Shown here: in pieces, positions 5,460-50,782 of the stretch
Position numbering within the stretch: the first letter of the stretch is position 1
Layout: each line of letters begins with the position of its first letter
Assembly: GCA_028695495.1 (NCBI GenBank)
Contig: JAQVIX010000002.1
Span: 1-64,000, forward strand
Length of the DNA: 64,000 nucleotides
Reading direction: 5' to 3'
Origin: Candidatus Cloacimonadota bacterium
GTDB lineage: Bacteria > Cloacimonadota > Cloacimonadia > Cloacimonadales > Cloacimonadaceae
Translations under genes and position numbers: made by a program
The notes under the pieces: model-generated
What the model saw: the letters and a program-made list of their open reading frames with translations, nothing else
The model's database searches: none
What the model was told of the DNA's origin: nothing

Positions 5460-6404
5460 CTATATCACTTCTACTTTACGAAAGCCTGTGGCAATAGGCA
5501 CCATACCACCCTGTTTCTTATCCTGCGCTAAACACCTTGTCACCATCTCTTTATCCAAATCTTGTACATCTCGAATAAGCCCCTCCGGCAAGGGATATTT
5601 ATCCAATTCCTCTATAATCCTTTGGTAATCCGCTTCGGGCAGATAGCCTTTGCGGTAGCTTTGTTCCACTTCACTATAGATTCCCATCACTACTGCATCC
5701 CCGTGTTTATAGCGATAATCCAGAAGCGTTTCATAAACATGCCCATAACTATGCCCAAAGTTTAGCAGCCGCCGGATGCCTTTATCATAAGGGTCTTCTG
5801 CGCATAGCCGCATCTTGTACAGGGCATATTCCATTATCTGCTCTGCATTGGGGATGCTGCCGGCTTGCAGGTTTACTTCGCTTAATTCATTACAGAGCAA
5901 ATAGCTCTTCAGCATTTCCGCTTTGCCCTGGCGCAATTCCATTTCCGGCAAGCTCTTAAGGAACTCTGGATAAATGATTACCGCTTCTGCCGGGTAAAAG
6001 CTGCCAATCAGATTGCGATGCCCCAGATGGTTAAGCGCGCTCTTGCCGCCCAATGCCGCATCTACCATTGCCAAAAGGGTACTGGGATGTAGCTTTAAGC
6101 GGCAGCCGCGCTTGAAGGTGGCAGCAGCGAAAGCGGCAATATCGCAGGTAATCCCTCCGCCTAATACCTGTATTATCTCGCTGCGGCGCAGCTTGTTCTT
6201 TGCCAGGAACTCATATATTCCCGCTAAGCTCTCCCAGCTTTTTGTTTTCTCACTGGCTTTTAGGGGATAAATTGCCAAACTTTTGTCAAATAGCTCTGGA
6301 TATAGTGCCAAAAGCTTTTCATCGCAGATTATTACGCCTTCCTGAGGGGATTTTAGGCTGTCGCAAAGCCTTATCCTCTCCGGCGCTAGGTAGTAGCTCT
6401 TCAT
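5460..6404 (-). CDS. aroB: 3-dehydroquinate synthase
   Basis: A 314-residue NAD- and Zn-dependent enzyme of the shikimate pathway, converting DAHP to 3-dehydroquinate. Visible family signatures are GGGITCDIAAFAAATFKRG at 82-100, GKAEMLK at 160-166 with the zinc-binding Glu163, NFGHSYGH at 215-222, and HGD starting at His234. It is somewhat shorter than the usual 340-370 residues, mainly through compact ends, but no catalytic motif is missing. The start ATG overlaps the stop of the upstream propeller gene by one base (TAATG), so it is the last gene of an envelope operon and is probably translationally coupled. No other aromatic pathway genes are seen here. Confidence 0.93.
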   Translation of the reverse strand: MKSYYLAPERIRLCDSLKSPQEGVIICDEKLLALYPELFDKSLAIYPLKASEKTKSWESLAGIYEFLAKNKLRRSEIIQVLGGGITCDIAAFAAATFKRGCRLKLHPSTLLAMVDAALGGKSALNHLGHRNLIGSFYPAEAVIIYPEFLKSLPEMELRQGKAEMLKSYLLCNELSEVNLQAGSIPNAEQIMEYALYKMRLCAEDPYDKGIRRLLNFGHSYGHVYETLLDYRYKHGDAVVMGIYSEVEQSYRKGYLPEADYQRIIEELDKYPLPEGLIRDVQDLDKEMVTRCLAQDKKQGGMVPIATGFRKVEVI

Positions 6405-8875
6405 TACTGCTTGATAAGTGCTAATTTGCCTCGCATAGTATTGCCCTTATCATCCATAATGGCAAAGTAATAGATGCCGCTGGCTACCAGATTCCCAGCC
6501 TTATTTCTGCCGTCCCATTCAAAGCGGGAAAAGAGGTTTTCCTTTAGCTCCTGGATCAAAAGCCCGCTGGCGCTATAGATGCGACATTCGTTTTTGCCTT
6601 TGGGCATGCTGTCGCTGGGCAAGTTCACAAGCTGTACGGTGCTTTTGCCATTGGCGTAAAAGGGATTGGGAAAGGCTTTTACTTCGTTTAACTGGCTGTT
6701 TGGCTTTATGCTACGCCCAATCCTTAAGGTGTTTAGCCCATCGGGAGTGCCTATCAGCAGTTTGCCGTCCAGGGGATCGTAGCCCAGCGAGATAATGCGG
6801 TCGGCAAGTAGCGGACTATTATCTTTGTAATAACTGGTAAAGCGCTCCGTTACAGGGTCATACATCGTTATCCCATGGTCATAGCTACCCACCCAGATTC
6901 TACCAAAGGGATCGCCATAGATGGAGTTTGGCACGGTGGTAAAGCTGCCCCAAAGCCGCTCTTCATCCTCATAGTAAAGGGTTTCGTTTACCCATTCATT
7001 GCGCTCAAAGGAATATTTCAGGCGTTTGATATTGATGTCGTAGCGATACCAATCCTCTTCGTCCCACATATACAGCCCAGAACCGGAGGCGATGAAGTGA
7101 TACCAACCGGCATAAGGGGTTTTGGTGCTTGCCACGCCGTAGATGGTGCCGCTATTCAATTCTGGCGGCATATTCGTTTCCCATAGTGCACCGTCTGTTT
7201 CGGGGATGCTGTCGTGTTTCCAGATACTTAGCCCGTTATCGTATTCGGTGCCAAAGAAGTATTGTCTGCCATTGTGGTAAGCGTTTAATACCCGCTGGGA
7301 GTTGCTATTCTTAAGGGTAAAATCACGTATTTTGGTGAAATCAGGGGCAATTACGCTTACACCATCGTCGTAGCACAATACCAGCATATTGCCGTGAAGG
7401 TCGCGATGGATGCCGTGCACGGTATTGCCCAAAATCTTTGGAGTATTGGGGAGATAATCGGTATATTGCACCCAACCGCTGAGGTCATAATCCTGTACGC
7501 CGCGTTTGGTAAGGCGCAGCCATTTGTCATCTGCCTCGTCGTAAATACACACGGCATTGAACCAGCCATTGTCTGCCGGCTCGGAGTCCCAGGTGCCAAA
7601 CCACATTCTGCCCTGCGTATCTTCCGTTACTTGCAGGATGTTATCCGAATGCAGTGGGCTATTGTGGATATTGAAGGTATGCCAGTCGCTGCGGTTATAG
7701 CGGCTTACGCCCAGCGTGCCCTTGGGCACCATCTGATGCCCGATATTGCCGCTGGAAAACCACAGATCATTCCGGCTATCACTATAGCTAAAGCTTATTC
7801 TGGGAAAGCCGATGCTTACGGGGTTATATACCAGCCAATTGTCATCTTCCCAGCGGGCAATGCCTTCGCCCCAGGTGCAAAGGTAAATCTGCCCGTCATA
7901 TTCCTGTATGTTGGCGATGCTGGCAATGCCCAAACCCGCTTCATTTTCACGGAAATAGCGTATATCATCGCCGGGGGATACACTTACCAAAAGCGAGTCC
8001 GAATCCCGTTCATAGCGAAAGCGGCTGTGGTCCCAGCGTCCGTTGGCAATCCATAGCATGCCGTCCGATGCCATCAGGATTTGCGATATATCCTTTATGT
8101 GTTCTCGCTCCAATACTATTTCCTGCCAGGTGTTTGCGCTTATTTCTTTGGTAAATACACGTCCTGAGGAGGCTATCGCCATCTTGTCTCTATTTAGCGA
8201 AAAACAGTAAGGTGCTATTATCGGAGGCAGTCCGGCGGCATCATCGCCCAATTTATGCCAGCTGCTATCTACATCCAGGGAGTCGATATGCACGTAGTTT
8301 ATTCCCGCTTCGGTATTTAGATACAGCAGTTTATCTTCCGTTAAGTGCATCTCCAATACATTGTCGTGCAAAAGTGCATCGTGAGTATTATAGCGGGTAT
8401 ATTGGTTTAGCATCAGCGGGAAATTGATGCCAGAGAGGTAGCTATAGCTCGCCAGCCCCTGCGTGGTGGCTACCAGGATAGTGTTGCCATATTCCAGGAT
8501 GGCGTTTATGGAAAGCGAGGGTAAGCCTAATTCCAGGTTCAGGTTTTGCACTCCGGCATCGCTTACAATGCTGATGCCATCATTGCGCGAACCCAGCCAG
8601 AGCCGCTCGCTTCCTTCTATCTTTGCTAGGCGGTAGATGTCGTTCGATACTATCCCCTCGCCGGTATTGATGTGCTTTAGCTCCTTTAGCTCATTAAAAG
8701 GCAGGCTCTCCGCCCCTTGCAGCTTCAGCACTCCGCCCCAGCTACAGATATAGATATCATCACCTTCTTTTTCCAAATAGTAGCTGTGGTTAGTATTGTT
8801 TATCGTTCCCCAATTCTGCGCCGCCAAAGCGCTTAAGCTAAGTATTATTAGCAGGATAAAGTATGTCTTCTTCAT
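6404..8875 (-). CDS. Secreted beta-propeller protein with C-terminal sorting domain
   Basis: An 823-residue protein with an N-terminal signal peptide (hydrophobic residues 4-18, then AAQN). The body has repeated blades of the two-component-regulator propeller type, for example LWLGSRNDG, MLWIANG, LWFSSG, RMWFGTWD, RIWVGSYDHG and LLIGTPDG. The last 90 residues are a FlgD/Ig-like fold beginning AFPNPF and ending in a basic stretch, typical of secretion and sorting tails in FCB bacteria (type IX-like). Unlike classical two-component propeller proteins it has no kinase domain, so a surface or periplasmic binding role is more likely than signalling. It overlaps the upstream WecA-like gene by 4 bases and aroB by 1. 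Its exact function is unknown. Confidence 0.85.
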   Translation of the reverse strand: MKKTYFILLIILSLSALAAQNWGTINNTNHSYYLEKEGDDIYICSWGGVLKLQGAESLPFNELKELKHINTGEGIVSNDIYRLAKIEGSERLWLGSRNDGISIVSDAGVQNLNLELGLPSLSINAILEYGNTILVATTQGLASYSYLSGINFPLMLNQYTRYNTHDALLHDNVLEMHLTEDKLLYLNTEAGINYVHIDSLDVDSSWHKLGDDAAGLPPIIAPYCFSLNRDKMAIASSGRVFTKEISANTWQEIVLEREHIKDISQILMASDGMLWIANGRWDHSRFRYERDSDSLLVSVSPGDDIRYFRENEAGLGIASIANIQEYDGQIYLCTWGEGIARWEDDNWLVYNPVSIGFPRISFSYSDSRNDLWFSSGNIGHQMVPKGTLGVSRYNRSDWHTFNIHNSPLHSDNILQVTEDTQGRMWFGTWDSEPADNGWFNAVCIYDEADDKWLRLTKRGVQDYDLSGWVQYTDYLPNTPKILGNTVHGIHRDLHGNMLVLCYDDGVSVIAPDFTKIRDFTLKNSNSQRVLNAYHNGRQYFFGTEYDNGLSIWKHDSIPETDGALWETNMPPELNSGTIYGVASTKTPYAGWYHFIASGSGLYMWDEEDWYRYDINIKRLKYSFERNEWVNETLYYEDEERLWGSFTTVPNSIYGDPFGRIWVGSYDHGITMYDPVTERFTSYYKDNSPLLADRIISLGYDPLDGKLLIGTPDGLNTLRIGRSIKPNSQLNEVKAFPNPFYANGKSTVQLVNLPSDSMPKGKNECRIYSASGLLIQELKENLFSRFEWDGRNKAGNLVASGIYYFAIMDDKGNTMRGKLALIKQ

Positions 8876-18162: not shown

Positions 18163-18436
18163 TTTTAGGTGTTAGGCGCTGCGCTCGTTTCGAGAGTAAC
18201 TTGTTTGGTTTAAGACTTTTATTTATGGCGTATTCGCGCAAATTAGCGGTGCTTTGTTTTCACTTAACAGGTAACCCATAACCCAAAATCGATAGCCCCG
18301 CCACGAACGCAGCTTAATTCTACATTTTACACTCTACATTCTACATTTGCGAGCTTGCTCGCATCCCGTTTGCCTCCCTCGCAATGCCCTCGTCTCTCCC
18401 CGCATTTTACCGGTAGAGGTGAGGGCATTACGAGGG
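18163..18436 (+). repeat. Long dispersed repeat R3, copy B
   Basis: Direct-orientation match to 1-300, starting at TTTTAGGTGTTAGGCGCTGCG and ending with the CCCTCGCAATGCCCTC hairpin at 18376-18434. About 120 bases in the first half are strongly conserved, including CCCATAACCCAAAATCGAT. The middle is replaced by a different short sequence between the two copies. The phased boxes of the 18555 promoter begin directly after the hairpin. Confidence 0.8.
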
Positions 18437-18442
18437 CGAGAT

Positions 18443-18490
18443 ATGAGTATAACTAATATTAAAGCATAAAAAATAAGCATTACTAATATT
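18443..18490 (+). promoter_or_regulatory. Two operator-like boxes matching those of the 16765 gene
   Basis: Box ATGAGTATAACTAATATT starts at 18443 and box ATAAGCATTACTAATATT at 18473, exactly 30 bases apart, in the same orientation toward the gene as the three boxes at 17398-17470. A TTGACA box follows at 18495. The second box includes TAATAT (18484-18489), which might be a -10 element. Shared sequence and shared spacing suggest one regulator for both transcripts. Confidence 0.65.
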
Positions 18491-32160: not shown

Positions 32161-34932
32161 ATGCAGGTATTAAACCTTAGTTTTTCCGAAGATTTGAACC
32201 ACCGGGTCTTTGACCACATCGTGGATGACACTATTTTGATTTACCCCACGCGGGCAGCAGCACAGCAGGCGCGCCTGGAATATGAAGCGCGTTGGCAGCT
32301 GGAACGCCTGCAATTTACCAGCATGGAAGATTTTAAAGCTTCCCTGATCTTGCCCGAAAAGCCAATCCCCGAAGATGATAAACGCCTACTTGCGCTGTAT
32401 CAGGTGCTTAGCCAAGAGGATAGAGACTATTTCCATCTCTATGGCTATCAAGATTTGGTAAGCTGGGGAGCGGAGTTTTTTAGCTTCTTTGGTGAATTGT
32501 GGGAAGCGGAAATCCCCTTTGATGAGCTTAATAGCTGGCAAGATAATCCGGAATTGGCACTGCGAGACTGGCAGGAAAAGAATATCCAGAGATTGGTGGA
32601 GATTGGCACGCGCTACCGGCAATTTATTGAAGAACGGGGCTTTGAAGACCTCATCTTCCATTCTGGTGCCTTAGCGGCGGAAATCCCTTTCAAAGACTGG
32701 CGCATAATCTGCGTAAACCAGTACTATTATAGCAAATTAGAGCAAACGCTACTAAGCGAATGCGAACGCGCCGGAAACGGGCTGATATTGGTATATCAGG
32801 GCGTGGAGGGAATAGCAAATAGCTTTAAACACAGGTCTCTAAATCTCGAAGCAGCCTGGGAAAGCCTTGCTGCCAAGCCAAAGATACAGATAGTAGAAGC
32901 CGAAAACGAACGTCAGGCAGCGCTTAGCTTCTTGGCGCTGGAAAGCGGTGATAAGCCACTTAGCATTATCGATAGCAGCTTTATCCTCAAAAGCTATTCC
33001 GCCTATTTCGATCCTCAAAAGCTGAAGCTCCAGAGCAGCCTGCCCATTAGCGAAACGAGCTGGTATCGCACGCAACGCATTATGTTGGAAATCTTGCAGG
33101 AGATGGAGCTAAATAAAGGCTTAATCCCCATCCGTCTGATACTAAAGTATTTTGGCAGCTTATCCGCGGTAATGCCTTTTGTGCCGGATTGGAAAGAGCA
33201 GGATTTTATCGCCTTCCGCTATGAATTGCACCACCAGATAAAGGTTCAAACAATCTACTTAGATATTGATATCAACCGGCAGTTCGATCAGCCCGATAGC
33301 CGTATCTATCAGTTTTGCAGCGCACTAAACAGCATCTTAAAGCAAATCCTGAGTATCCAAAACCTAAATAAGCTCTTGCTTCTTTTGGATGGAGCATTAA
33401 ACCCCAAGCACTTTTCCAGCGAGGAAGAGCTGAATAATAGCGACCTCTTAGCCCGCACCTGGGAAGCCATGGCAAACTTCCTGGCAATTGAAAAGCTGGG
33501 CTTTGTGCAAGACTGGACAAAGGTATTTATCAAGCCTGCACTGAATATCTTTCAGCTTTGGCTGGACCAGCTAAAAAGCCTGCGTCTCAAACGCACTTTT
33601 AATGAAACCAAACAGCCGGTATGGGAGATTAGCAACCTTTTGGATGCGCGCAACCGCGTATTTAAGCGCCTGGCGGTATTTAATATGGTAGAAGGGATTT
33701 TGCCCTCTTCACCCAGCGCCATCTGGCTTTTAAATGAGCATCAGCGCCAAAAATTGGGCATGAAATGCTATGAAGATATCCGCGATTGGGAGCGTTATTA
33801 CTTCTTCCGCCTGCTCTTTTGCAGCCGCGAAGCCACTTTGTATTGCTATTTGGATAAAAAGAATGCTATAGACCACAGTAGTTTTATTAGCGAACTTGGG
33901 GTATTACTTGCCGAAAATCCCCCGTTTTTGCGCAAATGCAAGGTGCATGAAAATGAGCTTTTGAAGGCCTGGAGAGAGCAGGCAGAGCAGGATTTACTTA
34001 GCCTGCCTCCAGATATCTATTTGGCAGATGCGAAAGACGCCAGCTTCTTTTGCATTCCTTCTCTACCCATACAGGACTTTAAGGGAAGTAAAATCCCCTT
34101 TAGCAGCTACAATCTACAGCTCTTTGTATCCAACCCCTTTGCCTGGTACCTTCGGGGTTTACGGGCTATAGAAAAACTGCAAATCCCGCGCCGTGAGCTT
34201 ATTTCGCCCATCCTCTTTGGGCTGCTTTTGCACGACTATTTTGGCAAAGTATTGGCGCAGGATGATGGCATCCGAAATAGCTATACAAGGCTGGATGAGA
34301 TCTTTAACGACACGGAATTACTTAGCCATACCCTAAAGGAGATAATTGATAGCGATGCTTACCGCTACAAGATTCCCCGCAACTACAATTATAGCTATTT
34401 GAATTACATAGTAAGCGAGCGTTTGGCAATTTCTTTACAGGAGTTTTACCAGCTTTATCTCAAAAAACGCATCAAGGACGGCGCTTTTACCCTTATTCCC
34501 GAAGACACCCTAAAAGGAAACCTCGAAAAGACGCTTTTGATTCACAAATACGCAGATAGGGATTACCAGATAGTGCTAAGAGGCAGGGCAGACCTTCGGA
34601 TAGAAACCCCGCAAAAGCACTATATAGTGGATTTTAAGACCGGAGGCGCCTACAATGAGCAGCTCATCTTTTATGAATGGCTCTACTACCTTTTGGACGA
34701 TCCGGAGCTTGCCGAAGAGGTTGAATCTTCTTTCTGGAAGATATTGGAGATGGAAATAGCAGGCGAAAGCAGCAACGCCAAGAAAAGGGATGGCTACCTT
34801 GAATCGATTGTAAATGCGCTTACCGAGAACTTTAGCGCAGGCTATGGCATGGCACGCACCGTGCAAGACCGCGCAAATTACCAAGAAATAAGTCGCAGCG
34901 ATCTCTACAAAAGGGGAGGGGAAAATGACTAA
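32161..34932 (+). CDS. addB: AddB-like nuclease/inactive helicase subunit
   Basis: A 923-residue protein that pairs with AddA downstream. The C-terminus carries a RecB-type PD-(D/E)XK nuclease region: LLLHDYFGKVL near 695, RGRADLRI near 806 and YIVDFKTGG near 821. The N-terminal two-thirds are helicase-like without a clear Walker A. AddAB-type enzymes resect double-strand DNA ends for RecA-dependent recombination and degrade foreign linear DNA. GGAGG precedes the ATG, and the end overlaps addA by 8 bases. Sequence similarity to the classical AddB is low in the middle, so the call rests on the nuclease motifs and the partner. Confidence 0.85.
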   Translation: MQVLNLSFSEDLNHRVFDHIVDDTILIYPTRAAAQQARLEYEARWQLERLQFTSMEDFKASLILPEKPIPEDDKRLLALYQVLSQEDRDYFHLYGYQDLVSWGAEFFSFFGELWEAEIPFDELNSWQDNPELALRDWQEKNIQRLVEIGTRYRQFIEERGFEDLIFHSGALAAEIPFKDWRIICVNQYYYSKLEQTLLSECERAGNGLILVYQGVEGIANSFKHRSLNLEAAWESLAAKPKIQIVEAENERQAALSFLALESGDKPLSIIDSSFILKSYSAYFDPQKLKLQSSLPISETSWYRTQRIMLEILQEMELNKGLIPIRLILKYFGSLSAVMPFVPDWKEQDFIAFRYELHHQIKVQTIYLDIDINRQFDQPDSRIYQFCSALNSILKQILSIQNLNKLLLLLDGALNPKHFSSEEELNNSDLLARTWEAMANFLAIEKLGFVQDWTKVFIKPALNIFQLWLDQLKSLRLKRTFNETKQPVWEISNLLDARNRVFKRLAVFNMVEGILPSSPSAIWLLNEHQRQKLGMKCYEDIRDWERYYFFRLLFCSREATLYCYLDKKNAIDHSSFISELGVLLAENPPFLRKCKVHENELLKAWREQAEQDLLSLPPDIYLADAKDASFFCIPSLPIQDFKGSKIPFSSYNLQLFVSNPFAWYLRGLRAIEKLQIPRRELISPILFGLLLHDYFGKVLAQDDGIRNSYTRLDEIFNDTELLSHTLKEIIDSDAYRYKIPRNYNYSYLNYIVSERLAISLQEFYQLYLKKRIKDGAFTLIPEDTLKGNLEKTLLIHKYADRDYQIVLRGRADLRIETPQKHYIVDFKTGGAYNEQLIFYEWLYYLLDDPELAEEVESSFWKILEMEIAGESSNAKKRDGYLESIVNALTENFSAGYGMARTVQDRANYQEISRSDLYKRGGEND

Positions 34933-37900
34933 TTTTAAAAACCAGATAATCACCGCCAGTGCTGGCACCGGAAAGACCTATCGCCTATCCCTGGAATATA
35001 TTGCGCTCATCTTACGCTATTATGAAATAGCGGATTTTAGCCTGGATAGCATCCTGGCACTTACCTTTACCCGCAAAGCCACTTTTGAGATACGCGAACG
35101 CATTTTGGAGCATCTGGAAAGCCTGGACAAAGGCACAGATAAGGGATTAATGGAAAATCTCTGTAATATGCTGGGGCGGGACACCTTAGAGCTTGGTAGT
35201 AAGGATCGCGAAATCATCGCTTCCGCCCGCCAGCAAATACTAAACGACAGCCGCTATCTGCAAGTAAGCACTATCGATAGCTATATCGGCAAAATCTTCC
35301 GCAATATAGTATGCCCGCTTAGAAATATAGATGAGTATGAGATAGACGAAAACGCCATTAATAAGCGCATGCCCTTTTTGCTGGAGCATCTGATGCTGCC
35401 GGAGATACTAAAGAAAATAGATAATCTGCTAAGCCGCAAGGTATTGCGCGGCTTGGATGACTACAGCGGTTTCTTTAGCTCCCTTATCAAAGAACGCTGG
35501 CTCTATTACCTTATCAAGAAACGCACAAAGAATAATAACTTAGCCATTCCCGATAAAGACCACTTGCAGCTCTTTAAAAATGATATATTGGATTATTGTC
35601 AGGGGATTGGAGATAGCGCCCTTTCCATGCAGATATCTGCCTACGATGTATTTAAAAAAGGCATGAAAGATATTTTCAAAAGCGAACCCAATAACGGCGA
35701 GGATTTATACCGCGAAATACTTGAACTTGTGGCAAAACCCCAGGACGCAGTAAAACTGATGAAGGAGCTGGCAAATGGTCAAAGCTATATGCAAAAATAT
35801 GTGGATAAAGACCTTCGCCCAGTGCTTACGGAATATCAAATGCGCGCAGCGGAGCACCTGGCAAATTACCTTTTTGAGCAGCTTTTTATTCCCGAACAAG
35901 AGGAGATTCTGGAGCTATGGGAGATCATTCTCAAAGAATACGATAAGCTGATATATCGTTATAAGAATATGACTTATGATGATGTAAGCTGGTATAGCTT
36001 CGAGGCGCTTTTTGCGGAAGACCCGCCCAGGTTCGATTTCTCGATAGAGAATACTGCAAACGAGTTTTACTACTTCCTTAGCCACCGCACGCGCTTCCTT
36101 CTGATCGATGAATTTCAGGATACTTCGCTTATCCAATTCAATATCCTCAAACCCATTATGGAAGAAATCTGCGCCGGCTATGGCAGCAAAGATTTTGGCG
36201 GGATGATAGTGGTGGGCGATGAAAAGCAAAGCATCTTTGGCTGGCGTAAGGGAGAGCGCGAATTGCTTTTGAACCTGCGCTATCTGGTTGGCAGCCTGCA
36301 AGATGTAAAGGAAGACATACTGCATACTTCCTACCGCTCTACCGAAGGCATGATGCACTTTATCAATACCATATTCTCGGATGCACAATTACATCGCTAT
36401 CTTTCTGAAAAACAGATGAATTGGAGCTATCAGGAAGTAGATAGCGGCATCGGCAAGCTGCCCGGCATCCTGGAATATAAATGCGCCCAGTATAGCACAA
36501 CTAAGGGTGTAGCTCTCAGAGATAAAAACGATGCTTACGAAGATTTTGTAATAAATATGGTAAAACCTGCCTGGGAAGCAGATAAAGAGCAGCGTTTTGC
36601 CATCCTTTGCCGCAAAAATGACGAACTAAGCATCTTGCAATCGCTACTGGAAAAGCACGATATGGGTGGCTTATTTCAACCCTCGGATTATATAGTAAAT
36701 CACCGCCTTATTCACCCTCTCATTTCCTGGCTGCGTTTTGTATGCTACAATGACTATTATGAATTGCTTAGCTTCTTGCGCAGCGATTATCTGATGCTCA
36801 ATTCCGCTGCCCTCAAATATCTGGTGGATGCCCTGGCGCAGCACAATATAGAATTAGAAAAAAAGAACTACAATGCGCAGCTGGATTTAAGCGCTTATCC
36901 CGCTTTGGCAGAGTGGTTTAGCCTGGCAGCCAAACAGCGGCAGATGAGTCCTTACCAATGCCTGCGGGAGATCGTGGGGCTTATCTTAAACGATGATCTG
37001 CAAAAAAACAAGCGAGACCGTCTGAATCTGGAAGCCTTTTTGGCGATGGTAAGGGATTGGGAGCTAAATCAAGCTGCACAAGGTGCGCATTTACCTGAGC
37101 TTCTGGATTATATAGAAGATAACGCCAGGCAAGATGATTGGAAGCAAGTTTCGGTAGAAGGCGAAGAAAGGGTGGAACTCATTACCATTCACTCAGCTAA
37201 GGGCTTGCAATTTGACCGCGTATTTGTCTTTATGAGCCTGGGCGGCAGAGGCGGCGCAAAAGACTCGGCAAATAAACTCTTTTGGGCATACCGCTATACC
37301 CAAATCCCGGATAAAGAGGGCAATCCCGTAAGCAATTTGCACAATTTAGATGCCTATGCCCTAAGCTACCATTACAAAGACATTTTGAAGCAAAGCAGTG
37401 CCCGCGAACTCTGGGAAGCCAGCGAACGCCAAGCGGTATTGGAAGAGCTAAATAATATCTACGTAGCCATTACCCGCGCCAAAACCTCCCTGCACCTCTA
37501 TTTTTGCTATGAAAACGCCAAAGATTGGCAAAGCTATTTTACAGATAAACTGGATAAAGACAAAAGCAAAAACCTCCTGCCCATGTTGATCGCCAATAGC
37601 TGCTTCAATTATTTTGAGCAGATCAGCTCCAATGAACAGGGTTTTCGCTCTATAGAGCTGCACTCCGGCAGCGAACAGAAGCTGAAAACAGATGAACAAA
37701 GCTTTATAGTGGAAGAGCTTACACTGGATAGCAGCTCGCTGGCAAGCGCCAAAGGTTTGGATTGGGAGCGCAGCCAGCCACTGGAAGAAAACCTGCATCA
37801 AAACTGGCAGGCGGTATATATCGAGCGCCCGCAACATCTATATGGAGACATCCTGCACTATTACCTTAGCTTTATCCTGCGAGATACCGCAGATGAACAC

Positions 37901-38230
37901 CGCCTGGCACTCAAGCACTGCCTAAAGCGTTATGGTTCACTACTTTCCGCCAGCAAGATCAAAGAGCTGTGCGATAATGGTCGCCGCAACTTGCAGGAAT
38001 ATAGCTATCTCTTTGGCGCAGAGTACGATAAGGTATATACTGAATTGCCCGTAAAAAAGTATCGCATAGACCGCCTTTTAATCAATAGCGCCCAAAAGCA
38101 AGCCCTGGTAATTGATTACAAAACCGGTGGTATCCACGAGCCGGAACAATTGGAACGCTATGTGAAAGCTTTGCAGGAATTGCCGGCATTTGCGGGATAT
38201 AATTTTGAGTATCAGTATATTAGCTTGTAG
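34925..38230 (+). CDS. addA: AddA-like UvrD-family helicase-nuclease
   Basis: An 1101-residue protein. Superfamily 1 helicase motifs are complete: Walker A SAGTGKTYR near 12-20, LALTFTRKATFEIRER near 44, LLIDEFQDTS near 392, GDEKQSIFGWRKG near 430, HSAKGLQFDRVFVF near 757 and YVAITRAKTSL near 847. A C-terminal nuclease region follows: GDILHYYLSF near 975 and ALVIDYKTGG near 1058. It should unwind and cut DNA ends together with AddB. The gene overlaps addB by 8 bases. No Chi-like site can be identified from the window. A repeat-rich gap follows without an obvious terminator. Confidence 0.92.
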   Translation: MTNFKNQIITASAGTGKTYRLSLEYIALILRYYEIADFSLDSILALTFTRKATFEIRERILEHLESLDKGTDKGLMENLCNMLGRDTLELGSKDREIIASARQQILNDSRYLQVSTIDSYIGKIFRNIVCPLRNIDEYEIDENAINKRMPFLLEHLMLPEILKKIDNLLSRKVLRGLDDYSGFFSSLIKERWLYYLIKKRTKNNNLAIPDKDHLQLFKNDILDYCQGIGDSALSMQISAYDVFKKGMKDIFKSEPNNGEDLYREILELVAKPQDAVKLMKELANGQSYMQKYVDKDLRPVLTEYQMRAAEHLANYLFEQLFIPEQEEILELWEIILKEYDKLIYRYKNMTYDDVSWYSFEALFAEDPPRFDFSIENTANEFYYFLSHRTRFLLIDEFQDTSLIQFNILKPIMEEICAGYGSKDFGGMIVVGDEKQSIFGWRKGERELLLNLRYLVGSLQDVKEDILHTSYRSTEGMMHFINTIFSDAQLHRYLSEKQMNWSYQEVDSGIGKLPGILEYKCAQYSTTKGVALRDKNDAYEDFVINMVKPAWEADKEQRFAILCRKNDELSILQSLLEKHDMGGLFQPSDYIVNHRLIHPLISWLRFVCYNDYYELLSFLRSDYLMLNSAALKYLVDALAQHNIELEKKNYNAQLDLSAYPALAEWFSLAAKQRQMSPYQCLREIVGLILNDDLQKNKRDRLNLEAFLAMVRDWELNQAAQGAHLPELLDYIEDNARQDDWKQVSVEGEERVELITIHSAKGLQFDRVFVFMSLGGRGGAKDSANKLFWAYRYTQIPDKEGNPVSNLHNLDAYALSYHYKDILKQSSARELWEASERQAVLEELNNIYVAITRAKTSLHLYFCYENAKDWQSYFTDKLDKDKSKNLLPMLIANSCFNYFEQISSNEQGFRSIELHSGSEQKLKTDEQSFIVEELTLDSSSLASAKGLDWERSQPLEENLHQNWQAVYIERPQHLYGDILHYYLSFILRDTADEHRLALKHCLKRYGSLLSASKIKELCDNGRRNLQEYSYLFGAEYDKVYTELPVKKYRIDRLLINSAQKQALVIDYKTGGIHEPEQLERYVKALQELPAFAGYNFEYQYISL

Positions 38231-38550
38231 CTCCGCTGCGCTGCGCGAGGTGATAGATGTTAGGCGTTAGGTGTTAGGGGCTGCGCTCGTGCCGGAGATA
38301 TTTGTTTTGGGATAAGCATTTAGAAAAGGGTGAAATCAAAGCTTTTACCACGAATGAACGCGAATTGATACGCTAATTTACGCGAATACATAAAGTGAAC
38401 AAAGCAACAAAACAATTCCGCCACCATGCGTCAGCATTTAATAAGGCTCTCTTTCAAATATAGTGGGTAAAGAAAAAAACAATGAGCTAATACGGAGAAA
38501 ATGAAGCCTAAGATGGCATCAAATTCAAGCTGTGTAAAGGTCTTGTCCCG
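38231..38550. other. Gene-free stretch after addA
   Basis: The first 70 bases resemble the start of repeat R3 (GTTAGGCGTTAGGTGTTAGG, then GCTGCGCTCG), and 38341-38400 contains a 'cgcgaattgatacgct' type sequence with variants near 46300. No coding region or terminator is seen. Confidence 0.5.
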
Positions 38551-38880
38551 TCAGGGACAGTGGTTTAGCTAGCCCAGGGTGTGCTTGCCAAAAACGAGCT
38601 TGCGAGTTTTTGGCAAGATAAACCCTGGGTATTGATGCGTTTTGATGGTTGTCTTTTATCCGCCAGCCCTCCCCTTAGATTTACTCCCCAAAAAAGCGTT
38701 TTTGGGGAGTAAATCTAAGGGGAGGGCTGGGGCTTTATTTATCATATTGCTATATAACGCGATTGCTATCTAAAATGCCACCCCTAAAGGGGTTCCGCTC
38801 GGTTGTATGTTTTAGCATTTCTTGAGGATACCAAATTCCGAACTTATCTGATAATGGCAAAATGAATAGCACAACAAGGT
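38551..38880 (+). repeat. Composite palindromic repeat R2, copy 2
   Basis: About 330 bases matching copy 3 (50003-50326) on the opposite strand with few differences, and parts of copy 1. In order: a CCCAGGGTG..CACCCTGGG-type hairpin around TTGCCAAAAAC, a perfect central hairpin at 38663-38730, a GGTTCCGCTCGG segment, and an ACCAAATTCCGAACTTATC end. It is joined on its right to a truncated, palindromic piece of R1. Confidence 0.85.
38663..38730. repeat. Perfect 32-bp hairpin at the centre of R2 copy 2
   Basis: Arms 38663-38694 and 38699-38730 pair perfectly around AGCG. Compared with the equivalent hairpin at 50137-50202, one substitution and one single-base length change appear in both arms, so pairing is preserved. 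Confidence 0.95.
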
Positions 38881-39025
38881 ATGTTCACACCTGAAATGTA
38901 GGGTTCAAGGCATTGAACTCGCCGAAATTTACACGCAACAGCTAATCATTACGGATTGATACTCAATCCGTAATGATTAGCTGTTGCGTGTAAATTTCGG
39001 CGGGTTTGGGTGCCTTGCTTGTGCC
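38881..39025. repeat. Truncated R1 copy 4 rearranged into a 40-bp perfect palindrome
   Basis: Part of R1 (ending near CCGTAATGATTAGCTG) is present twice head to head. The arms 38920-38959 and 38963-39002 are perfect reverse complements with a 3-base centre. The GC-rich hairpins and one terminal inverted repeat of R1 are missing, so this is a rearranged relic. Confidence 0.9.
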
Positions 39026-39115: not shown

Positions 39116-39150
39116 AAAAAAAGGTCTGCCATTATGGGCAGACCTTTTTT
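39116..39150 (-). terminator. Intrinsic terminator of the 39170 gene
   Basis: Stem AAAAAAGGTCTGCC/GGCAGACCTTTTTT with a 6-base loop. T-runs on both strands could stop transcription from either side. It lies 20 bases past the stop codon of the minus-strand gene. Confidence 0.9.
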
Positions 39151-39169: not shown

Positions 39170-41956
39170 TTATTTGGAGAGCAGCATTTTACGGTGCACG
39201 GATTTACCGGCATTTTCCACTTTCATGAAATAAATACCGCTGGCTACATTTTTGCCTTTGGCATCGGTGCCGTTCCATACCACGCTATGCTTGCCGCTTG
39301 CCATTTCCTGATTTACCAGAGTATTGATCATCTGACCCTTGAGGTTGTAAATCTTTACGCTGGTCATGCCGCTGGTGGGCACGCTATAAGAAATGGTGGT
39401 GGTGGGGTTGAAGGGGTTCGGGTAATTGCTAATCGCCAGAGTAAGCGGAACCACTACATCATCATCATTTGCCATAATGGGTTCTTCGATGGAGCGGATC
39501 ATGATTTCGCCATTGGTATAGGCAGCCCAGCCGGCGCCCAGGTTTGTATAGCTAAAACCATTGGAAGAGGTATCCACACCAATCTGGGAGGCATTCGGAG
39601 TTTCCATGATTGCCAGGTAATAATCACCGCTTTGGATAAGCACAGGGGTGGGGAAGGCAATGTAATTCCAGCCTTGAACCACGTTTGCGGCGGGGTATTG
39701 TACCTGTGTAATCATGGTATTGGGCATGCCGTCGGCACCATCATCGTTGTAAACGCGCACAATAATGCTGGAGGTGGAAGGCGTATGCACAAATACTTTG
39801 GCATAATTCAGTATCACGGAATGGCTGTTTTCGTAATATACCGCCATCTGACGCGAGCTACCTACGCTCAAGCCCATTTCGGCGCTGCCATCATCGTGGT
39901 AGGATTCGCAAAGATGAGGAGGTAGGATAAATATGGTAACGGTATTGGTGGCAGGGGATTCGTTATTGTCGTACATAGCGGTTACATAGTAGCTATGCAT
40001 TCCGCCTTCCACGCCGTTATCGGTATAAGTAAGCACGTCTTCCGCCACGCTATCGATCATCACACCATCGCGATAGATTCTGTATCCGGTTGCGCGGCTC
40101 ATTCTTACGCTATTCACTCCCAGTTCGCCCACGGCAAATTGCTCGTTTTGGGGAAGTTCACCCAATACATATTCGCGACCATTGGCATCGGCTACATATA
40201 CTTCGATAGTCCAGTTGTAGTCAAGGGTGGCGGCTACATTTAGTAGCGTAGTCCAGCTTCCCTGCCAGCGCATCATATTGCCATATCCGTCCAAGGCAGG
40301 ACCAGCGTCCACGCCTGCGGGGTGTCCGGTTTGGGTATTGCAGCGATAGCCTGCCATCAGGCTGGTATTGGGAGGAATCGTGTAAGGGGTAGCAAGGGTA
40401 ATTTCATTCCATGCACCGATTGTGGGGTTTGTAACTACCTGATCCACTACCAGGTTGCCGGCAGCACCAGTCCATACGCGTACAGAGTATTCGCAATTAG
40501 CTTCGGCAGGGAAGAATTTGATCTTAGTAATATTCATGCCCACATAAGGATAGATGCTATTGGTTTCGCCCATAGCGTCATATTTGTGTGCGCAATCGAA
40601 ATCGGCAACACCGCCGGTACCAATGGAGTTATTTCCCGGTGCACCGGAATAGGTGAGCCAGCCTTCTTCGCCGCCGCCGCCACCGCCGCCGGGAGCTTCC
40701 CAAGCGAGGGTAACGCTATTGCCACTTACTTCAGCGGTGAGGTCGGTGGGCGGAGCGATAAATACGTCGTTGAATATCTTAAAGTCGTCTATCATGATGC
40801 CGGTGCCGATGGGAGTATCGTCGTCGGATTTGAAATACCAGCGGAATTTAACGGTTTCGCCAGCGTAATCCGAGATATAGCCATTCAGGGAATAGGAATC
40901 CACCATGGAAGCCCATACGTCTGGGGCATCAATATATACGTAGTTATTTCCCGTGGCGCTGCCGTATGGGTTGCTCATCGCGCGCCAGGTAGTGCCGTTA
41001 TCCGGCGAGATTTCCCAGCCCCAATAGTCGAGGTCTGCCAGGTTGCTTTGCGGGCTGGTGTCGTCAAAATAGCCCATAATCATGAAGTCAGCCCTGATGT
41101 CTCCACTGGAAGGCAGGGTAATGGAAGGGCTTACCAAATAGTTCAGCATATTGGTATTGTAAGAGCCTTGATCGTTTTGGTTTTGCATTACGTGAGTGGG
41201 GCTTGGAGCAGTGGCATTGGTTACCAGATGCCAAAGGTCTCCACCCAGGGGTACCATGCTGGAAGCCACCATCTCGCCATCATCCACGCCGTTATTGCTA
41301 TATCCGCCAAAGGAGATATCATCTACCATAAAGCCGAAGAGGGCAGCGTTATTGGTGGTATCATAAGCGGGGTCGGAAGCAAAGGCAAAGCGGATTTTTA
41401 CGCTTTGACCCACGTAGGCAGAGAGGTTGAAAGTGGCGGTAGTCCAGGTGGTTACTATACCACCCCAGCCGGGGACGCCCAAGCCTTCACCGTGTTCGCT
41501 GCCAAAGGCATAAGAATTTGCAAAGTCATAAGCGGGAGTGCCAGCTATTACCGTCCAGGTAGTGCCGCCATCGGTGGAAATACGGATATTGGCAGAATCC
41601 CAGCCGTCATATTCTTCGTGAACAGCGGGTTCTTCCAAGCCGAGCCTGTATTTGAAAGTAAGGGTGGCGTTGCTGGCGGTAAGAGTGCGCGCCGGGGTAT
41701 CCAACACCAGATACTGATGGCTCAAGTAGCCACCGATATCATGACCGGATGCCAGATCGGGGTCTCCCATCCACCAAACGTTTCCCTGAGTGCCGCCAAC
41801 ATCGTAAACATGCCATTGATTGGGACTCTCAGCTCCATCATAATGAATCCAGCCATCGGCGTTAGACTCAAAGTCTTCGTGATATGCTACTACTTCGTAT
41901 GCAAATACAGAAGTAATCAGCATCAGGGCCAAGATAATAAGCCAGTGCTTTTTCAT
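39170..41956 (-). CDS. Large secreted multidomain protein with sorting tail
   Basis: A 928-residue protein with a signal peptide (residues 1-19, ending VFA). Residues 25-215 and about 225-395 look like two jelly-roll type domains of the secreted 'choice-of-anchor' kind, each with SGNNYV/TSTDGGTTW-type motifs and DDI/DDF near the end. A fibronectin type III-like unit begins near 400 (PTDLTAEVSGNSVTLAWEAP), followed by seven glycines, an oligo-glycine hinge. The last 85 residues form the FlgD/Ig-like sorting tail starting NYPNPFNPTTTISY and ending KMLLSK. It may be a surface adhesin or a protease-associated protein; no catalytic motif is evident. Rho-independent terminator downstream; SD-like GGAGG precedes the ATG. 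Confidence 0.82.
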   Translation of the reverse strand: MKKHWLIILALMLITSVFAYEVVAYHEDFESNADGWIHYDGAESPNQWHVYDVGGTQGNVWWMGDPDLASGHDIGGYLSHQYLVLDTPARTLTASNATLTFKYRLGLEEPAVHEEYDGWDSANIRISTDGGTTWTVIAGTPAYDFANSYAFGSEHGEGLGVPGWGGIVTTWTTATFNLSAYVGQSVKIRFAFASDPAYDTTNNAALFGFMVDDISFGGYSNNGVDDGEMVASSMVPLGGDLWHLVTNATAPSPTHVMQNQNDQGSYNTNMLNYLVSPSITLPSSGDIRADFMIMGYFDDTSPQSNLADLDYWGWEISPDNGTTWRAMSNPYGSATGNNYVYIDAPDVWASMVDSYSLNGYISDYAGETVKFRWYFKSDDDTPIGTGIMIDDFKIFNDVFIAPPTDLTAEVSGNSVTLAWEAPGGGGGGGEEGWLTYSGAPGNNSIGTGGVADFDCAHKYDAMGETNSIYPYVGMNITKIKFFPAEANCEYSVRVWTGAAGNLVVDQVVTNPTIGAWNEITLATPYTIPPNTSLMAGYRCNTQTGHPAGVDAGPALDGYGNMMRWQGSWTTLLNVAATLDYNWTIEVYVADANGREYVLGELPQNEQFAVGELGVNSVRMSRATGYRIYRDGVMIDSVAEDVLTYTDNGVEGGMHSYYVTAMYDNNESPATNTVTIFILPPHLCESYHDDGSAEMGLSVGSSRQMAVYYENSHSVILNYAKVFVHTPSTSSIIVRVYNDDGADGMPNTMITQVQYPAANVVQGWNYIAFPTPVLIQSGDYYLAIMETPNASQIGVDTSSNGFSYTNLGAGWAAYTNGEIMIRSIEEPIMANDDDVVVPLTLAISNYPNPFNPTTTISYSVPTSGMTSVKIYNLKGQMINTLVNQEMASGKHSVVWNGTDAKGKNVASGIYFMKVENAGKSVHRKMLLSK

Positions 41957-46134: not shown

Positions 46135-46555
46135 TTGATGTATATCCTTTTTTCTTACTAACACAGATCACTGTTGCATGAGTTTTTTGCTATTGAGTCA
46201 ATCTGTGGGCAGGCGAGTTTTTGGCAAGAAGTATTTTTGAGGATAGATATTGCGCGCAGCTTTGCCAGAACTATGGAGAGGTATTTTCCCGCAGATTACG
46301 CGGATTTTCCCGCGAATTTCACAGATATTTCCCACGAATGAACGCGAATTAAAACCGGTTTTGTGGGGCAGAATAATAATGTGGGAGCGACATCTTGTCG
46401 CTTGAAGGTATATACGGCATCTTGCCGTATAAAAATAGAAATCATGCGGCAGGATGCCACACCCACATTCATGCGGCAAGATGCCACATCTACTTTTCTG
46501 CGGCAAGATGCCACATCCACAGTGCTTATAACCTCCCCCAAAAATAACAATAACA
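46135..46555. repeat. Gene-free stretch with GGCAAGATGCC repeat units
   Basis: Between the divergent exporter and receptor units. At about 46388-46520 lie irregular copies of a short palindromic unit (GGCAAGATGCC or GGCATCTTGCC), related to the perfect 27-base array at 50405-50562. Around 46250-46330 is a short-period sequence with repeated 'cgcgaatt' and 'cacaga' words. No gene is called. Confidence 0.65.
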
Positions 46556-46583
46556 TTGACAAATATCTGGACACCAAAATACT
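46556..46583 (+). promoter_or_regulatory. Promoter of the cobalamin riboswitch transcript
   Basis: TTGACA at 46556-46561, a 16-base spacer and AATACT at 46578-46583 (4 of 6 matches). It lies 15 bases before the riboswitch. Confidence 0.55.
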
Positions 46584-46597
46584 GACCTTATGACCTG

Positions 46598-46745
46598 ATG
46601 GTGCTTTTGCAAAGGTAAAAGGGAAATCTGAATTGATGCGGTCTCCGCCACTGTATGCAGCATAAAGGTTTGCCCCGCCACTGTTTATCGTAAATGGGAA
46701 GGCGTGGCAAGATAACCGCTGTGAGCCAGGAAACCTGCCAACAGG
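46598..46745 (+). promoter_or_regulatory. Cobalamin riboswitch
   Basis: Conserved aptamer elements occur in the expected order: GATGGTGC, GGTAAAAGGGAA, a GCGGTCTCCGCCACTGTA segment, a second CCACTG, GGGAAGGC, and the B12-box GAGCCAGGAAACCTGCC. Such RNAs bind adenosylcobalamin or other cobalamins and switch off uptake or synthesis genes. Downstream, TTTAAGC at about 46750 can pair with GCTTAAA near 46788, which may be part of the expression platform. The regulated gene is the TonB-dependent receptor. Confidence 0.93.
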
Positions 46746-46837
46746 TGTATTTTAAGCGTTTTCACGGAGCCAAAGAGAACTGCTTAAATACCCGCATTTA
46801 GCGCCCGGTCATATAAAGAAACTAAGAGGTGAATCCG

Positions 46838-49018: not shown

Positions 49019-49709
49019 GGGTTAGGTGCTTTTTGATCTGTCAATGTGTGCATCCAAATACGAAATGTGGTCAGTAGCAGGAGATTTCCACCACGAAAAT
49101 GTAGGGGCGGCCCGTGTGCCTGCCCAATGCTTACACGGATTGAACGGATACCACGGATTTTTATTATCACAGAGAACGCTGAGAACACAGAGAACACTGA
49201 AGAGGGGTATAAGATTGCAGGATAGCTCTTTGCGCTTAGCTTTTTTGTCCACAGATTAACGCAAATTATCACAAATTTAGTCAGCCTCTTGGACTTCTTG
49301 CCGCTTATCCGCCTTCTATCGCCGCCAACGCCTTATACAAGCGGCAAGGAGTTCAAAAGGCTTTCCCAAATTCCACACACCATGCGTAAGCGTCAAATTA
49401 ACCTGCGCTTGCGCAGCCAGTGAGCTTGCGAGTTTTAGGCAAGATCACCTTGGGTAAAGAAACGCGTTTAAATATGGAAATAAAACCCCAGCCCCCCCTA
49501 ACCGGGTTCTGCTCGGCAGACATGTTGAAAATATCGGATAGTTTAGGCATTTTGTTCTCTCCGTTTTATACGCGTTTTATGATTATTTGTAACCGCAATA
49601 TTTCTTAGACTATTACTAAACATAAATCAGCTCATTTGGCTCATTTTTGGGATCAACCAATTTCGCACGGGACAATTTTTCCGCCCATTTCCCGTATGCC
49701 TCTCTCGCA
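49019..49709. repeat. Gene-free stretch with degraded repeats
   Basis: 49095-49240 has 'cacagagaacgctgagaacacagag' type words of short period. 49295-49355 carries an element related to those near 845 and 17820 (GCTTATCCGCC..AACGCC). 49430-49560 is a degraded fragment of R2 (CTTGCGAGTTTTAGGCAAGA and CCCCAGCCCCCCC). No coding region is supported. Confidence 0.55.
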
Positions 49710-49762
49710 ATGCCCTCACCTCTACCCCGAATTTACCGGTAGAGGCGAGGGCATTGTAAGGG
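49710..49762. repeat. R3-type terminal hairpin, isolated copy
   Basis: The imperfect stem CTCGCAATGCCCTCACCTC / GAGGCGAGGGCATTG, matching the hairpins at 239-300 and 18376-18434. The rest of R3 is absent, so the hairpin moves or survives independently. Confidence 0.75.
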
Positions 49763-49783
49763 CAACAGACGGGGATGCAGGCA

Positions 49784-50005: not shown

Positions 50006-50326
50006 TTTACCATTATCAGATAAGTTCGGAATTTGGTATCCTCAAGAAATGCTAAAACATACAACCGAGCGGAACCCCTTTAGGGGTGGCATTTTAGATA
50101 GCAATCGCGTTATGTAGCAATATGATAAATAAAACCCCAGCCTCCCCTTAGACTTACTCCCCAAAAACGCTTTTTTGGGGAGTAAGTCTAAGGGGAGGCT
50201 GGCGGATAAAAAACAACCATCAAAACGCATCAATTACCCAGGGTTTATCTTGCCTAAAACTCGCAAGCTCATTTTTTGGCAAGAACACCCTGGGCTACCT
50301 AAAATGTCGTTCCTCCGGAACTCATG
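50003..50326 (-). repeat. Composite palindromic repeat R2, copy 3
   Basis: The inverted equivalent of 38551-38880 with the parts in opposite order: ATAAGTTCGGAATTTGG, a CCGAGCGGAACCCC segment, a perfect central hairpin at 50137-50202 and a CCCAGGG..CCCTGGG hairpin. Together with copy 2 it brackets an 11-kb segment in inverted orientation. Confidence 0.85.
50137..50202. repeat. Perfect 31-bp hairpin at the centre of R2 copy 3
   Basis: Arms 50137-50167 and 50172-50202 pair perfectly around CGCT. A one-base deletion and a T-to-C change relative to the hairpin at 38663-38730 are mirrored in the other arm. Confidence 0.95.
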
Positions 50327-50404: not shown

Positions 50405-50562
50405 ATGCGGCAAGATGCCACATCCACTTTTATGCGGCAAGATGCCACATCCACTTTTATGCGGCAAGATGCCACATCCACTTTTATGCGGCAAGATGCC
50501 ACATCCACTTTTATGCGGCAAGATGCCACATCCACTTTTATGCGGCAAGATGCCACATCCAC
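50405..50562 (+). repeat. Six-copy 27-bp tandem repeat
   Basis: Units start at 50405, 50432, 50459, 50486, 50513 and 50540, identical in each full unit (ATGCGGCAAGATGCCACATC then CACTTTT); the last is cut short. Each unit contains GGCAAGATGCC, able to form a small hairpin. Because 27 is a multiple of three the array is open in several frames and yields repetitive peptides (for example CGKMPHPLL), but no ribosome site or conserved flanks support translation. Confidence 0.97.
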
Positions 50563-50782
50563 TATGTTGGGAAAGCCGCTTGAACTCCAGCACACTTGCA
50601 TAAGGCGTTGCCAGCACTAAAAGGCGGATAAGTGCACTGAAGTCCAAGAGGCTGGTCGCTGCGCTCGCTTTTAGAGCAAAGCAAAAACAAACAAGGCAAC
50701 TTATCTACGAGCGTCAGCATCTAATAAACCATTGCGAGCTTGCGAGCAATACCGCCATTATTCATCATTCATCGTTCATTAT
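50563..50782. repeat. Gene-free stretch after the tandem array
   Basis: Contains another fragment of the element with GCATAAGGCGTT and AGGCGGATAAG (related to 845, 17820, 49300) and a 'cattattcatcattcatcgttcatt' type stretch before the tcdA 3' end. No gene called. Confidence 0.5.

Follow-up and report, generated by a model that had tools for sequence, protein, structure and literature searches.

Within the window that we analyzed, which is the first 64,000 nucleotides of contig JAQVIX010000002.1 from a Candidatus Cloacimonadota bacterium (assembly GCA_028695495.1), a RecB-like helicase gene and a gene for a protein with a T9SS-type C-terminal sorting domain converge on an intergenic region that contains a long perfect palindrome and pieces of two repeats, R1 and R2. 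The features of this region are as follows.

34925..38230, + strand: RecB-like helicase gene (UvrD family), 1101 aa, which stops 690 nt before the palindrome
38545..38800, − strand: R2 copy, some 120 nt to the left of the palindrome; R2 gave 77 matches in its own genome, some places being matched on both strands
38663..38730, no strand: perfect palindrome of this R2 copy, with 32-nt arms and a 4-nt loop
38870..38959, − strand: left R1 copy, recognizable part, with the CAATGCC variant after the arm; the 5' half is absent and the outer end was placed by eye
38916..39006, no strand: extended inverted repeat with 44-nt arms and one mismatch (GAGTT vs GGGTT)
38920..38959, − strand: left palindrome arm, 40 nt, the mid-part of the reverse-oriented R1 copy
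38955..39017, + strand: right R1 piece, with the TGGGTGCC variant after the arm; truncated at both ends, other sequence following from 39018
38960..38962, + strand: loop TAC, 3 nt, which together with its neighbours forms a mini-hairpin (38955-38967)
38963..39002, + strand: right palindrome arm, 40 nt, the mid-part of the forward-oriented R1 piece
39117..39150, no strand: likely bidirectional intrinsic terminator of the convergent genes, judged from its perfect 14-nt inverted repeat with an A-run and a T-run
39170..41956, − strand: gene for the protein with the T9SS-type C-terminal sorting domain (928 aa), running towards the helicase gene; its 3' end lies 168 nt from the palindrome

The two 40-nt arms were exact reverse complements around the 3-nt centre TAC, as a sequence-only reading of this DNA had stated, and the whole palindrome comprises 83 bases. 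The R2 copy that the same reading had placed beside it was found at about 38545-38800. When positions 38916-39006 were folded as single-stranded DNA, the energy was -52.5 kcal/mol, compared with a mean of -9.0 kcal/mol for shuffled sequences (z = -17.4; none of 200 shuffles equalled it). Thus, the palindrome is not a product of chance. Four perfect palindromes with arms of at least 20 nt and loops of at most 10 nt were present in the window, of which 38920-39002 was the longest; the remaining three (515-584, 38663-38730 and 50137-50202) each lay at an R2-like place.

A very stable fold between convergent genes might represent a selected element, in which the hairpin serves as a transcription terminator, an RNA-processing site or a protein-binding site, and the hairpins of R2 are perfect too at 22 of the 30 loci fetched. 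However, no T-run follows either arm, and the palindrome does not show the combination of a G+C-rich stem and a subsequent T-run that defines an intrinsic terminator. A consensus terminator scan reported no terminator-like site in this region, although it missed 39117-39150 as well, where a terminator-like inverted repeat already stands. Further, this exact arrangement was found at no other place in the genome, so that no conserved use is visible. We therefore regard selection for the hairpin as a highly improbable origin of this palindrome. At the gathering thresholds, Rfam models detected a cobalamin riboswitch (46582-46756; 79.4 bits) and two tRNAs in the window, and nothing more.

R1-like matches were found on many contigs of the same genome (2,718,772 bases in 155 contigs). 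The searches each scored 40 of 146, 176 and 156 first-look candidates, and the match counts are therefore lower bounds. From the fetched loci, at least 65 copies of the R1 arm were aligned; excluding the two focal ones left 63, among which are a few near-identical neighbours or repeats, for example on contigs C101 and C107. R1 is intergenic and approximately 244 bp long (25 full-length copies of the 65; range, 237-246). It starts with GAGGCTGTCC and ends with GGACAGCCTC; these terminal inverted repeats pair in the alignment of the 25 full-length copies. The end motif GAGGCTGTCCNGAAAT occurred 79 times in the genome, including six facing pairs 227-230 nt apart. In its length, terminal inverted repeats and high copy number, R1 looks like a MITE. 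Unlike MITEs, R1 showed no convincing target-site duplication of 2-9 nt in the 25 full-length copies of 65 (flanks matched in four cases at 2 nt, with 1.9 expected, in one at 3 nt, with 0.04 expected, and in none at 4-9 nt), and no element combining these ends with a transposase was identified in what the analysis covered, namely the end motif and the transposase family Y1_Tnp. When 59 genomes were searched using blastn, a method that diverged relatives of R1 may escape, R1 was matched in its own genome and in none of the 58 relatives, including 11 species of the same genus.

We compared the two focal pieces with the other R1 copies. Both arms matched R1, and an exact gapped pattern for facing R1 arms was found at the focal locus only (2.72-Mb draft; the pattern misses pieces with a changed base), which bears out the earlier description of two R1 pieces joined head to head. 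Both pieces lack the 5' half of R1, and the nearest other copies matched the right piece at 60 of 63 nt. The 40-mer common to both arms was absent from the 63 other copies collected, the best of which matched at 38 of 40 positions; since these are part of all R1 copies, the 40-mer might sit in a further one, whereas the junction does not, its half-junction 14-mer TTACGGATTGATAC occurring once in the genome. Outside the arms, identity stops with GAGTT vs GGGTT, followed by CAATGCC on the left and TGGGTGCC on the right. The first letters after the arm were CAA in 45 and TGG in 18 of the 63 other copies. The left outer flank, GGCGAGTT, was found in none of the 63, and the right side carries GGCGGGTT. 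Because the pieces differ outside the arms, yet share a 40-mer absent from the 63 other copies, we suggest from these alignments that copying of one arm probably gave rise to the other.

Alternatively, ordinary deletion or inter-repeat recombination might have brought together, head to head, two R1 fragments that already shared one 40-nt allele, neither arm having been copied. The intergenic regions of this genome are mosaics of repeat pieces, and identical 40-mers do occur between other R1 copies: 25 of 1953 pairs agreed at all 40 positions, a figure raised by two biases, as the set was fetched by likeness to the focal locus and contains local duplicates. In contrast, none of the 63 copies has the focal allele, only three of them begin the arm with TCAATCC as here, and the identity of the two arms ends at their outer ends, precisely where the variants part. 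Thus, ordinary joining appears unlikely.

We also considered whether the palindrome is absent from the cell and derives from a chimeric library molecule or an assembly error. Fold-back chimeras are known artefacts of amplification, and the assembly is a draft of 155 contigs that is rich in R1 copies. However, the palindrome lies inside a contig of 68.9 kb and is flanked by genes. As the assembly contains the junction 14-mer at no other place, the palindrome was not stitched from another assembled copy. Further, the outer flanks of the arms differ and the arms end after 40-44 nt, whereas a fold-back formed during amplification would be expected to run further. An artefact is therefore quite improbable. 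We concluded that the palindrome is non-random and probably real, and that R1 has so far been seen in its own genome only, among the 59 searched by blastn.

The centre of the palindrome reads ATTGA-TAC-TCAAT, that is, a 5-bp stem and a 3-nt loop. The central 13-mer ATTGATACTCAAT was present whole in two of the 63 other R1 copies (C68:4906 and C73:10904), indicating that the folding allele exists elsewhere. Positions 38955-38962 read ATTGATAC; when the same place was read from the left copy, the octamer was ATTGAGTA, which no other copy of the 63 contains. The centre belongs to the right-hand piece, because 34 of the 63 copies have ATTGATAC in front of the arm, more than have any other octamer. 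Leftward of 38955, the R1 order of the right piece is lost exactly at the start of the fold.

The locus thus combines an adjacent reverse-complement copy, arms more alike than independent copies are, and a short inverted repeat able to prime synthesis, which together are the marks of a template switch. We consider it probable that a template switch during replication within R1 left this palindrome behind as a scar. The switch was most likely fairly recent, relative to the divergence of the R1 copies. A recent fold-back or template switch within R1 was also what the sequence-only reading had proposed, and the absence of the shared 40-mer from the 63 other copies and the primer-like mini-hairpin at the centre both speak in its favour. 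Because this mini-hairpin is present whole in other copies, a nascent strand could have folded, primed itself and copied its own arm. In the scheme that we propose, the bottom strand of the right piece would have been in synthesis when its 3' end, ...ATTGAGTATCAAT, snapped back into a hairpin. Pairing of TCAAT with the ATTGA that directly precedes the loop would then provide a primer, and the polymerase would copy the nascent strand outwards for approximately 40 nt, making the left arm a reverse-complement copy of the right arm. Finally, synthesis would move over to the left-hand inverted R1 sequence, either inside the GGCG common to the copies or immediately ahead of it, a switch-back point that we placed solely from where identity ends. 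The inverted copy on the left may have existed beforehand, in which case an imperfect inverted repeat was corrected, or may have been joined in the same event, which may have taken one switch or several. This would leave, between the two convergent genes, a palindrome that is short and very stable and shows no sign of function. All 12 same-genus genomes, including the one studied here, carry the helicase gene (43-52% identity in the 11 others), and neither the ancestral state nor a close strain of the locus was found among those 11. In a search of named genomes with an alignment of the 12 helicases, four of the 80 loci kept, among them the best one (39% identity), came from Candidatus Cloacimonadota, which makes this phylum the probable host; the draft itself yielded no 16S sequence.

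The mechanism is already known, and the present locus is most likely a new instance of it. An excerpt of PMC7202029 describes how quasipalindromes of E. coli become more perfect when the polymerase takes the nascent strand as its template. The locus resembles the quasipalindrome-associated template switch (the Ripley model, studied with E. coli reporters by Klaric, Perr and Lovett, 2020) in that the nascent strand would serve as template, the inverted repeat is perfected and a short hairpin lies at the switch point. It differs in that approximately 40 nt would have been copied within a repeat element of an uncultured bacterium, and in that the event is read from one end state and no mutation was observed. 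According to an excerpt of PMC8794818, which deals with the birth of hairpins in RNA genes, a perfect stem can arise from a single template switch. The template-switch origin of RNA hairpins (Monttinen and Loytynoja, 2022) is similar in that a single event yields a perfect reverse-complement stem; whereas that study reconstructs the ancestral histories of RNA genes, we have the end state alone and claim no RNA function. A literature search for Cloacimonadota together with inverted repeats found no reports, and none of the papers listed by broader searches names the group. The value of the locus is that it would present a clean natural snap-back template switch, in which the primer hairpin, the copied tract and the switch-back are all legible, because many sister R1 copies exist.

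SbcCD, to which the sequence-only reading had drawn attention, is represented in this genome by an sbcD-like gene (408 aa) and an sbcC-like gene (1092 aa), which overlap by four bases and both have open frames. The SbcD match was above the TIGR00619 cut-off. SbcC was the best match of the second gene but scored below the NCBIfam curated cut-offs (537 of 750 bits), and the Pfam model SbcC_Walker_B was above its own cut-off in this gene. Loss of SbcCD is therefore not supported as the reason for the survival of the palindrome. Regarding tolerated lengths, an excerpt of PMC4245961 states that recombination-proficient E. coli tolerates an interrupted palindrome of 246 bp even with SbcCD, that a perfect palindrome of 460 bp is lethal when SbcCD is present, and that SbcCD is said to cut hairpins in vitro down to those of 20-36-bp palindromes. 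On the basis of these E. coli lengths, the 83-bp palindrome is a possible substrate of SbcCD, and lethality would not be expected. The statement that such palindromes are usually unstable in bacteria was accordingly too strong, as 83 bp is far below the 246 bp tolerated in the excerpt and the genome harbors further perfect palindromes of 54-75 bp.

These further palindromes include those of R2, in which a long palindrome occupies a fixed place within the repeat. At the best 30 of the 77 R2 matches (loci L197-L226), 22 contained a palindrome that was perfect and uninterrupted, each arm measuring 26-37 nt; the other eight failed the strict test, and an imperfect hairpin was discernible in them by eye. 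The arm sequences differed widely between copies, while pairing was kept within copies. In a set of 25 R2-like hairpins picked for near-perfect stems, so that its figures lean to perfection, we counted 3 mismatches in 798 arm positions; the best between-copy identity of the arms had a median of 0.58, and 41 close pairs showed 137 compensated vs 11 uncompensated differences. The R2-like ends of this set were judged by eye, and only its members from L197-L226 lie at an R2 match; the figure of 22 of 30 is free of the selection for near-perfect stems. At 17 R2 loci, the median between-copy identity was 0.62 in the arms, the ends of which are imprecise, and 0.71 and 0.67 in the 40-nt flanks. The flanks are thus nearly as variable as the arms, which weakens the reading that the arms turn over in a special manner.

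A 400-kb sample of the same genome, consisting of 20 stretches of ten contigs already met in the R1 searches, contained seven perfect palindromes with arms of at least 25 nt and none with arms of 16-24 nt. One of the seven belongs to a third repeat type. Across 399,582 bases from eight species of the same genus, there were no palindromes with arms of at least 25 nt and two with arms of 23-24 nt. This genome seems rich in perfect hairpins. Long perfect palindromes are probably not exclusive to it, as argued by a locus (L117) from a Candidatus Cloacimonadota MAG, in which a perfect palindrome with 37-nt arms and a 9-nt loop (6366-6448) lies approximately 1 kb after the helicase gene; it was the only palindrome with arms of at least 16 nt in 124,038 bases of 18 loci. 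The third repeat is intergenic, 83 nt long and has near-complementary arms (CCTCGCAATGCCCTC...); it was found in the window at 229-311, 18365-18447 and 49691-49773, and a perfect hairpin of this type with 25-nt arms was present in locus L260.

The R2 pattern is a more interesting lead than the focal palindrome. We tentatively suggest, while considering it rather doubtful, that in this species template switching homogenizes inverted repeats so often that families of intergenic hairpins keep perfect stems of 26-37 bp while their arms turn over, despite SbcCD, the focal palindrome being a fresh product on a different repeat. Frequent homogenization of arms would account for R2 as well as for the focal palindrome; R2 could alternatively reflect selection for a terminator or a hairpin RNA. 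Should the R2 pattern and the focal palindrome share a cause, the genome would be a natural record of how perfect hairpins come about and persist in the absence of structural selection. It would then warn that compensatory changes do not by themselves prove RNA function, and would raise the question of how bacteria bearing SbcCD live with many long perfect palindromes.

The repeats also recall REP/BIME elements, which are likewise intergenic palindromic repeats, and contig C80 of the same genome carries a gene that resembles REP-associated tyrosine transposases (RAYT-like gene; L268 1379-2185), although its 54.5 bits fall short of the curated cut-off of 80. In contrast to R1, however, the units beside this gene are of the GTGGCATCTTGCCGCA type and distinct in sequence. 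In the 3,246 bases around the gene, no matches to R1, R2 or R3 were found; the proposal that a RAYT moves R1 is accordingly not supported. A second Y1_Tnp gene adjoins copies of R1 and R2 (L270 4407-4823). It covers positions 47-121 of the 121 in the profile, fits IS200 better than RAYT and is a truncated IS200-like transposase, the frame of which starts inside an R1 copy; R1 flanks it on either side, and a copy of R2 is adjacent. At 46442-46521 and 50405-50563, the window has tandem 27-bp repeats that contain the unit TGCGGCAAGATGCC, which is also present on both sides of the RAYT-like gene. The TGCGGCAAGATGCC repeats and the RAYT-like gene are possibly a REP/RAYT system.
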